Shown in pieces: positions 55,577-58,728 of a stretch of 64,000 bases of DNA (position 1 is its first letter; each line of letters opens with the position of its first letter). The stretch is from Sulfurimonas sp. GTDB taxonomy: Bacteria; Campylobacterota; Campylobacteria; Campylobacterales; Sulfurimonadaceae. The stretch covers positions 1 through 64,000 of the forward strand of contig JALUWV010000035.1 of NCBI GenBank assembly GCA_027019335.1. The letters are read 5' to 3'. The translations under genes and the position numbers were made by a program. The notes below the pieces were generated by a model. The model was not told where the DNA came from. It did not search any database and saw only the letters and a program-made list of their open reading frames with translations.

Positions 55577-55642
55577 GCACGATTCTTTTCATTCACTTTT
55601 AAAGTATAAAATAGCATTATATAAACTTTGGAGTACATATAC

Positions 55643-56431
55643 ATGGAGAGTAAAAACAGCACACTAGCATTAAGCATACAAGACCTTTTTCGGGGAAATA
55701 TGCTCAAGTATTCTATCCTCCCTTTTATCTTCAGTATGCTTATCCTTTATGTCATTTTCTTTGTGATTGCAGGCATAGGACTTGACCAACTCGGAACTAT
55801 GGATGTAGCATCGACACAGACAAGCATAGAAAATGGAGTACCACATACTGACAGTTTTACAGCGACCCTACAAGGAACAGCTATTATCAAATTTTTGATG
55901 AGTAGTGCTATTACTTCATGGATTGCCTCTTTTCTCGTTTATACTATTGGAAGTTTTTTAACACTCTATCTTTCTATATTTATTGCTTTAATTGTTATGG
56001 GATTTTTAACACCGCTTATACTAAGGGAACTCCATAAAAGACACTATCAAGATGTAGAGATGATTGGGTATTCTAACATTTTAGAAGGGCTTTTTTTAAC
56101 ACTCAAGTGGGCATTTACTATGCTACTGCTTTTTTTAGTGCTTGTCCCTATCTATTTTATACCACTTTTAAATGTTGTTGCATTTAATCTACCACTCTAC
56201 TACTTTTTTCACAAAATGATTACTTTTGATGTAGCATCAAACATCTGCACACGAGATGAAGCCATCAAGATAAAATTTTTCCATGCTAGTAAACTACGCC
56301 TCAAAACTTTACTGCTTTACCTCCTCTCACTCATCCCGTTTGTTATCTTTTTTGCTTCGGTATTTTATGTAATTTATTTGGGACATAGCTACTTTTTGGA
56401 AGTAAGAAAAATGAGATTAGAAGCAAGATAG
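55643..56431 (+). CDS. EI24 domain-containing membrane protein
   Basis: Multi-TM; internal start MESKNS preferred over 55628. Confidence 0.75.
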   Translation: MESKNSTLALSIQDLFRGNMLKYSILPFIFSMLILYVIFFVIAGIGLDQLGTMDVASTQTSIENGVPHTDSFTATLQGTAIIKFLMSSAITSWIASFLVYTIGSFLTLYLSIFIALIVMGFLTPLILRELHKRHYQDVEMIGYSNILEGLFLTLKWAFTMLLLFLVLVPIYFIPLLNVVAFNLPLYYFFHKMITFDVASNICTRDEAIKIKFFHASKLRLKTLLLYLLSLIPFVIFFASVFYVIYLGHSYFLEVRKMRLEAR

Positions 56432-56454
56432 CTTCTTTAATCTTACTTCTTTTT
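56399..56454. terminator. Bidirectional terminator-like hairpin at convergent gene ends
   Basis: GAAGTAAGA (56399-56407) pairs with TCTTACTTC (56441-56449), inner GAAGC-AAGATA-GCTTC; followed by T-run. Confidence 0.5.
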
Positions 56455-56646
56455 CACAGGGACTATTTCCATCATACCCATCCCACACTTTCCTTCACCA
56501 CATTTCATTATAATCTTATGTACAGGTGCTTTTTTAGCAACTTGAGGTTCTTGTTTATCCTCTGATTTTTGCATTACAACAACAGCTAAACCTACGATTA
56601 TAAGTAAGATTGTTGTTCCTATTCCTATCTTTTGTGCTTTATTCAT
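56443..56646 (-). CDS. 67-aa membrane-anchored Cys/Met-rich peptide with CGEGKCGMGMM motif (HvfA-like core?)
   Basis: Starts directly after the helicase stop with purine-rich RBS; single N-terminal TM; KCGEGKCGMGMM tail read from raw codons. Confidence 0.75.
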   Translation of the reverse strand: MNKAQKIGIGTTILLIIVGLAVVVMQKSEDKQEPQVAKKAPVHKIIMKCGEGKCGMGMMEIVPVKKK

Positions 56647-58728
56647 TTACTCTTCTTCCTTGTCCATGGCACTTAAAACCATTTTTCTATATGCTTCATC
56701 TTTTGGCACTAAACCAGATTCATACAAAAACTGTGAAGGCACAAAGTTTTGTTTTTTGATTTTATCATACTTTGCATAACTCAAGTACAATACATCCTTC
56801 GCTCGTGTCACTGCGACGTAAAAAAGGCGGCGTTCTTCATCTAAACTTCCCCCTCTTTGCATCAATTTTCTGTTTGGAAATCTTCCATCCATCAAATCAA
56901 TCACATACACTTCTTTATACTCTAAACCCTTTGAAGCATGCACACTCAGTAAGTTTACACCCTCCCCTTGTGTCAAATCTGAGGAGCCTAAAATCATAGC
57001 ATTTAAAAATCGTTCATGCTCATTATAGGGTTTTGCAAGTTCTTCAAGAAGAAGCATTTTTCTCCTGATTCGAGAGAGTGCTTCTGTTTTGTGTTTTTCA
57101 TCTACACTCCCATCTTTAAGTGTTGCTCTTTTTGTAGCTAAACTCTCTGCAATATATGCACAAAAAGTGGATGAAGCGATTTTGCGTACAATCGTTCTAG
57201 GTTGTTTAATCCCTTTTAAATCACGATACAAAAGATAAAAATTATGTAAAAAAGTTGCACTCTCTTTGGTAAGCTTTGGATGTTTCAACACAGGGTTTTT
57301 CATAAACTTCGCTTCAAATCCAAGCTTTACATACTTTCCAACCGCACCCAACTCTGCAAACTCGTCAAAAAGACCAAGTTGTGAGTTGAGCTTGCGTTTT
57401 TCAAAAGGATTTTTGATGCTTTCATCAGGGGCGTACAGTCCAAAAAACATACTACCATTACCAACATTTTTCAGCGCAATATACAACTCTTTTGCCATGG
57501 CACTCCCTATCCCACGAGCAAATTCAAAGATATGAATAAATGCCATCATGTCTGATTCATTCACAAGTAAAGTGTACAAATCTAACACCGCTTTGACTTC
57601 ACGGGCATCAAAAAAGCTTGTGCCACCCTTGCGTTTACAAGGAATGTCCAGCTCACGAAGCCCTACTTCTATCCCATCTGCTGAAGAGTTATTGCGAAAT
57701 ATCACAGCAATCTCTTCATGTGGTGTTTGCGTGTCACGAATCTTTGCAGCTATGGCATGGTACTGGTCAAAAAGCTCTTCATATGCGAGCAATTTTGGAG
57801 CTTGCGCAGCAAAATCACGTGTCACTTCTAACTGCTTAGGGTAAATGCGTTCATTATGTTCTATCACTCGTGTGGCAAGCGAAAGGATAGGACGAGAAGA
57901 GCGATAATTTTTGGTAAGAGTATGTACTTTTGCCTGTGGAAATTTTTGGGTATAGGTACCAATTATCCCAATATCTGCCCCATTAAAAGCATAAATACTC
58001 TGATCATAATCCCCTACACAAAACAGTGAAGGCGGTTGCATCGCATCTATCAATGTGCCTTGCAGTGCATTCGTATCTTGATACTCATCCACAAGTACCT
58101 CTTTATAACCTAAATTTTTACTCTTGCAAATTTCTCGAAAATTTAAAAGAAGGTCATTGAAGTTCACAAAACCATACTCTTTTTTTAAAGATTCAAACTC
58201 ATCAACAATATCTGCATAAATCAAGGCAAAGATAGCATGCTCATCATACTTTTCTTTTATCCAATCTTCAAAATTGTTGTCTAGTTCTGTATTTTGATAA
58301 AAAGAGTACAAATCATACAGATGGTTTCCACCGTACGGTGTTGTCTCTGCTTCTATACGCATAAAGTTACGTTTCTCATATACTGAACGGAAAAGTGTTT
58401 TGAGTTCGCGTTGCTGTTTCAAAACGACACGTTTGTCAAATTTCTTTAACCATCTATAACTCACGGCATGAAAGGTTCCTGCATCTATTTTGGCAGCAAC
58501 ATTTTTACCAAAAAATTCTGCAACACGCTCAACCATCTCGGCTGCAGCTTTGTTGGTAAACGTCAGTAAAAGTATCTCTTCAGGCTTCACCTCATTGTTT
58601 AAAAGATATGCTATTCTTCCCACTATCGTGGAAGTTTTACCTGTTCCAGCAGAAGCGATGATGAGATTTTGCGCACTCTTTGAAGTTGCCGCGGCATACT
58701 GTTCTGTGTTTAAACGAGATAATGCCAT
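56647..58728 (-). CDS. UvrD/Rep/PcrA-family ATP-dependent DNA helicase
   Basis: ASAGTGKTSTIVGRIAYL, VDEYQDTNALQ, YRSSRPIL, LLSVHASKGLEYKEVYVIDL, YVAVTRAK. Confidence 0.95.
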   Translation of the reverse strand: MALSRLNTEQYAAATSKSAQNLIIASAGTGKTSTIVGRIAYLLNNEVKPEEILLLTFTNKAAAEMVERVAEFFGKNVAAKIDAGTFHAVSYRWLKKFDKRVVLKQQRELKTLFRSVYEKRNFMRIEAETTPYGGNHLYDLYSFYQNTELDNNFEDWIKEKYDEHAIFALIYADIVDEFESLKKEYGFVNFNDLLLNFREICKSKNLGYKEVLVDEYQDTNALQGTLIDAMQPPSLFCVGDYDQSIYAFNGADIGIIGTYTQKFPQAKVHTLTKNYRSSRPILSLATRVIEHNERIYPKQLEVTRDFAAQAPKLLAYEELFDQYHAIAAKIRDTQTPHEEIAVIFRNNSSADGIEVGLRELDIPCKRKGGTSFFDAREVKAVLDLYTLLVNESDMMAFIHIFEFARGIGSAMAKELYIALKNVGNGSMFFGLYAPDESIKNPFEKRKLNSQLGLFDEFAELGAVGKYVKLGFEAKFMKNPVLKHPKLTKESATFLHNFYLLYRDLKGIKQPRTIVRKIASSTFCAYIAESLATKRATLKDGSVDEKHKTEALSRIRRKMLLLEELAKPYNEHERFLNAMILGSSDLTQGEGVNLLSVHASKGLEYKEVYVIDLMDGRFPNRKLMQRGGSLDEERRLFYVAVTRAKDVLYLSYAKYDKIKKQNFVPSQFLYESGLVPKDEAYRKMVLSAMDKEEE

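Follow-up and report, generated by a model that had tools for sequence, protein, structure and literature searches.

Peptides bearing EGKCG repeats are regarded as substrates of MNIO (DUF692) enzymes, and a 67-aa gene of a draft Sulfurimonas genome (1.84 Mb in 116 contigs, 84% complete) raises the question of what such a motif does where no enzyme of this kind accompanies it. The gene lies in a window of 64,000 nucleotides, the whole stretch of DNA analysed here (Table 1), and its position and sequence are as the first-pass annotation gave them. That annotation described an orphan membrane-anchored peptide, translationally coupled to a UvrD-type helicase, in which the segment KCGEGKCGMGMM (codons at 56470-56505, minus strand) contains the core of HvfA-type copper-responsive RiPP precursors. 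It offered three options: an unmodified copper-binding tail, a peptide modified in trans, or an undescribed membrane-tethered relative.

Table 1. Features of the 67-aa gene, its surroundings and the related post-helicase loci.
Feature	Position	Strand	Remarks
67-aa single-pass membrane protein with KCGEGKCG tail	56443..56646	(-)	stop codon 56443-56445; orthologues, dN/dS
Predicted transmembrane anchor, residues 7-25	56572..56628	(-)	mean hydropathy 2.7 over 19 residues
KCGEGKCG core, residues 48-55, two Cys five residues apart	56482..56505	(-)	NF050137 match at residues 48-55
MGMM, Met-rich continuation of the tail	56470..56481	(-)	Met58 invariant in 4 orthologues
UvrD/Rep-type SF1 helicase	56647..58728	(-)	Pfam PF00580/PF13361; TAA directly abuts peptide ATG
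Terminator-like hairpin, matched on both strands, between the peptide gene and the convergent EI24 gene	56419..56436	(.)	3 found in region vs 2.0 expected by chance
Convergent EI24/CysZ-like membrane protein	55628..56431	(+)	PF07264 1.5e-21; neighbour kept in G039 and G083
TM-HMA-KCGAGKCG post-helicase loci	L164, L170, L171, L178, L180, L209		six other Sulfurimonas genomes

The open reading frame is not a chance one, because it has orthologues in three other Sulfurimonas genomes (G006, G039 and G083; 65-73 aa, E 1e-6 to 1e-11, 44-46% identity), its nonsynonymous divergence stays below the synonymous one (dN 0.20-0.43 against dS 0.93-1.75, or about 0.9-1.8, in the pairs where both are estimable; dN/dS <1), and the columns MKCGxGKCGxxM are invariant among the four sequences. 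The tail segment singled out by the first-pass annotation is conserved. Differences in the eight tail codons are mostly synonymous, the exception at residue level being an E-to-I replacement in G083, and the tail is under purifying selection. The single anchor proposed ahead of the tail is likewise borne out by prediction, residues 7-25 being hydrophobic and the segment common to all four proteins. It is preceded by two lysines and no acidic residue, from which a topology with the N-terminus inside and the C-terminus outside is predicted. The only Pfam match, to DUF1634, is below threshold and was taken as a match to the transmembrane helix; an HMA domain (PF00403) was absent from the peptide in the same search.

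The peptide does start on the base after the helicase stop codon, with no spacer. The same junction recurs in G039, where the EI24 gene again lies convergent behind the peptide. In G083 the gene order is the same, but a 514-aa gene (L084:10290-11834 (+)) that looks like an insertion stands between helicase and peptide; this locus was joined from contigs C340 and C102 by a 127-bp overlap inside the peptide gene. Another stretch of that locus (L084:3-296) begins similarly to the 514-aa gene (YVDKT/FIDKTKF). The G006 orthologue lies elsewhere in the genome, away from the helicase. Of the supposed translational coupling the TAA/ATG junction is therefore real and shared with G039, but the association with the helicase is probably one of position. 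No copper gene adjoins the peptide at the window locus.

KCGEGKCG appears to be the two-repeat EGKCG core of oxazolins and captophorins, in which modified Cys become 5-thiooxazole / oxazolone-thioamide. Against the HvfA-family domain model of NCBIfam (NF050137, cut-off 19.5 bits) the window peptide scores 18.9 bits, two orthologues pass with 23.6 and 21.6 bits, and the third reaches 16.2 bits, in agreement with the proposed HvfA-type core; the peptide is not among the matches of the HvfA equivalog NF050188. In vitro, FonBC requires two EGKCG repeats and tolerates most residues at the Glu position (PMC13097082). Two further features of HvfA-type systems are an N-terminal export or anchor signal, which the conserved hydrophobic segment provides, and a DoxX gene in the cluster; the ORF list of the window holds none beside the peptide, and DoxX adjoins HvfA-like genes elsewhere in the same genome (L081, L082).

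Compared with the oxazolin/captophorin precursors HvfA, FonA and NgoA (Buf_EGKCG; NF050137), the peptide is alike in its pair of EGKCG 5-mers, Cys spacing, envelope targeting and copper theme. However, it has one repeat pair only, a transmembrane anchor that looks uncleaved and a single domain match just under the cut-off, its locus is without MNIO, PME1 and DoxX, and neither MNIO nor PME1 was found in its genome. The lipidated oxazolin NedA of Neisseria dentiae is also a membrane-attached EGKCG protein with a proposed role in copper sequestration, but it is a lipoprotein whose modifying enzyme is its own MNIO, NedB, together with NedC (PMC12636315), whereas the peptide has a transmembrane anchor and no enzyme. 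Buf_EGKCG-EF-hand proteins share a transmembrane helix followed by a short EGKCG segment and then continue into two EF-hands (PMC12452194), while the peptide ends with its tail. Because MNIO and PME1 were searched for and not found, we do not class the peptide as a captophorin precursor, nor do we assign it RiPP status.

The reported lack of a DUF692 or HvfC-like gene in the window extends to the whole genome: neither MNIO (PF05114) nor PME1/DUF2063 (PF09836) was found in this 84%-complete assembly. Nor was either found in the orthologue carriers G006 (99% complete), G039 (96%) and G083 (90%), and MNIO modification of the peptide cysteines is not supported. Across the genus, PF05114 occurs in 5 of 135 genomes (4 of the 79 of high quality), none of them an orthologue carrier, and PF09836 in 4 of 135. 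The KCGxGKCG pattern was detected at the DNA level in 95 of the 135 genomes (61/79 high-quality; reversed-pattern control 0). Since all five MNIO-bearing genomes carry it, 57 of the 79 high-quality genomes have the motif without MNIO. A published survey found EGKCG precursors without MNIO to be rare (67/2583 genomes; PMC12452194 Table 3), although it used its own HMM and its counts are not strictly comparable with ours. Among the papers searched, none combines Sulfurimonas, copper and DUF692, and none contains KCGAGKCG. An unmodified copper-binding tail and an undescribed membrane-tethered relative remain from the three original options, and modification in trans by an MNIO is disfavoured.

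The peptide is not an orphan in one sense, as its own genome holds genes for at least three further KCGxGKCG proteins. Among 90 distinct bearers of the motif, mostly from Sulfurimonas, the N-terminus is hydrophobic in 87, including 17 with a lipobox, and the other three look truncated or mis-started; the distance from the last KCGxGKCG to the C-terminus has a median of 4 residues and an upper quartile of 31. In Sulfurimonas they include lipoproteins, HvfA-like repeat peptides, HMA proteins, a MerT-HMA fusion, a NosL protein and c-type cytochromes. Such tails were seen, for instance, on the MerT-HMA protein at L073:5212-5943 (-), the NosL protein at L044:1488-2009 (-) and a c-type cytochrome at L023:985-1545 (+). 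Outside the phylum, a Crocinitomix (Bacteroidota) lipoprotein (L003:4619-5119 (+)) contains several KCGEGKCG units.

Comparison of 20 motif regions from other genomes with 20 control regions of the same set (~19-kb) returned CusA, CopA ATPase or CopA multicopper oxidase in 11/20 versus 2/20 (Fisher p=0.006; some CusA matches at E 1e-10 could be to other RND pumps), DoxX in 15/20 versus 0/20 (p=8e-7) and GMC oxidoreductase in 13/20 versus 0/20 (p=1e-5), all three p-values being approximate because regions from related genomes overlap and are not independent. In the genome of the window itself, a CusCBA-type operon is followed by a sensor gene and then directly by the gene of a KCG lipoprotein (C12, L080). 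Two other contigs of this genome (C86 and C107) encode HvfA-like KCG peptides near DoxX and metallo-beta-lactamase-fold genes. C86 also carries a homologue (L081:2236-2559) of the MNIO-adjacent precursor of G100, G101, G102 and G041, which stands without MNIO and PME1; its product has lost almost all cysteines, with a Met-rich body in their place and two Cys only, at a lipobox-like site and in the terminal KCGSH. This single case fits a history in which the enzyme was lost and unmodified ligands took over. HvfA-like genes at L070, L071, L072, L074, L079, L088 and L224-L239 are strongly linked to DoxX and GMC oxidoreductase, the latter often together with a Tat-signal gluconate-dehydrogenase-type subunit.

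Of the themes raised by the first-pass annotation, copper is the best supported, by association with Cus/Cop genes and by the fusions to metal proteins. We consider it fairly probable that the peptide exposes an inner-membrane-tethered periplasmic tail which binds Cu(I) or a similar soft metal and works without MNIO, as a local sink or hand-over site.

A first alternative is that a non-MNIO enzyme modifies the tail. One candidate is the GMC oxidoreductase together with its gluconate-dehydrogenase-type subunit, which has a Tat signal; another is the metallo-beta-lactamase-fold protein. The retention of DoxX and GMC oxidoreductase beside HvfA-like KCGxGKCG genes in MNIO-free genomes would agree with this, as would the KCGAGKCG sequence of these genomes, which is identical to that of MNIO-adjacent precursors in other Campylobacterota. 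However, the candidate genes also flank the locus in an MNIO-containing Sulfurimonas (L088) and hence need not replace MNIO, none of them lies near the window gene, and GMC and gluconate-dehydrogenase-type enzymes are sugar or alcohol oxidases. YcaO, another conceivable modifier, was not found in the genome; radical SAM proteins gave 14 matches there, which is uninformative on modification. We regard this alternative as unlikely, with the counterpoint that the persistence of DoxX, a core gene of MNIO clusters, beside HvfA-like paralogues could mean that some modification persists.

The peptide might instead be an ordinary captophorin (oxazolin) precursor; its MNIO and PME1 genes would then either fall in the part of the genome that the assembly lacks, or act in trans. 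Its two 5-mer repeats correspond to the shortest FonBC substrate modified in vitro (PMC13097082), and an MNIO gene could be missing from an assembly that is 84% complete, but not readily from that of G006. PF05114 was found neither in G006, G039 and G083 nor in 130 of the 135 genus genomes overall, and PME1 is likewise rare. In a phylum sample of 397 genomes, MNIO scored above the cut-off in 25, all outside Sulfurimonas within that sample, and in all 12 genomes that carry the motif as well as MNIO, the two genes directly adjoin each other; nothing alike adjoins the peptide. An ordinary precursor thus seems improbable.

The position behind the helicase raises the question of another origin. In nine of 90 genomes examined, a KCG protein is encoded directly downstream of the helicase. 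Three of these are TM-only proteins, all in the peptide's own clade (99/91 support, one non-carrier included), and six are TM-HMA-KCGAGKCG proteins in another Sulfurimonas clade (G001, G025, G030, G033, G049 and G119). The latter resemble the peptide in genomic slot, N-terminal transmembrane segment and type of tail, but hold an HMA domain between anchor and tail where the peptide has none. Common descent of both slot proteins with loss of HMA would be attractive, because two independent arrivals of rare genes at one site would be surprising, but the tree requires five changes. The peptide could be viewed as a decaying, functionless remnant of a TM-HMA-KCG protein, and in a global alignment the missing block does fall over the HMA domain. 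Yet every pair that could be estimated has dN/dS below 1, nearly all differences in the tail codons are synonymous, the G006 orthologue survives elsewhere in its genome, and profile comparison of the two families detects similarity in the tail only, which leaves descent by domain loss unproven. We give the remnant explanation little credence.

Sulfurimonas are sulfur oxidisers, and a Gly-flanked Cys near the C-terminus superficially recalls the GGCGG end of SoxY, but the idea that the tail is a swinging arm carrying sulfur rather than metal is highly doubtful, as the proteins that accompany it or are fused to it belong to copper and mercury systems (HMA, MerT, NosL, Cus, Cop) and not to Sox.

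Returning to the metal-binding tail, we propose that the peptide is a small inner-membrane protein with a cytoplasmic N-terminus and a tail that would face the periplasm. The two Cys of KCGxGKCG, as thiolates, together with the following Met residues may bind Cu(I) or a similar soft metal without MNIO modification. Held at the inner membrane near Cus/Cop export, the metal would find in the peptide what is likely a local copper sink or a hand-over site for the envelope copper-export machinery. The peptide would then belong to a large group of Sulfurimonas envelope proteins sharing KCGxGKCG.

On a wider scale, we see about as much reason to accept as to doubt that in Sulfurimonas the captophorin core KCGxGKCG has become independent of MNIO and now serves as a general, detachable metal-binding tail on envelope proteins, from transmembrane peptides and lipoproteins to HMA, MerT and NosL proteins and cytochromes; either thiol chemistry alone would suffice, or an undescribed non-MNIO enzyme would act. 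The main point of interest is that the motif has been retained and has multiplied in a genus of which 5 of 135 genomes carry MNIO. Nature has thereby set up in Sulfurimonas a clean test of two possibilities: copper handling may do without the thiooxazole, or there may be a second enzyme that modifies the tail.
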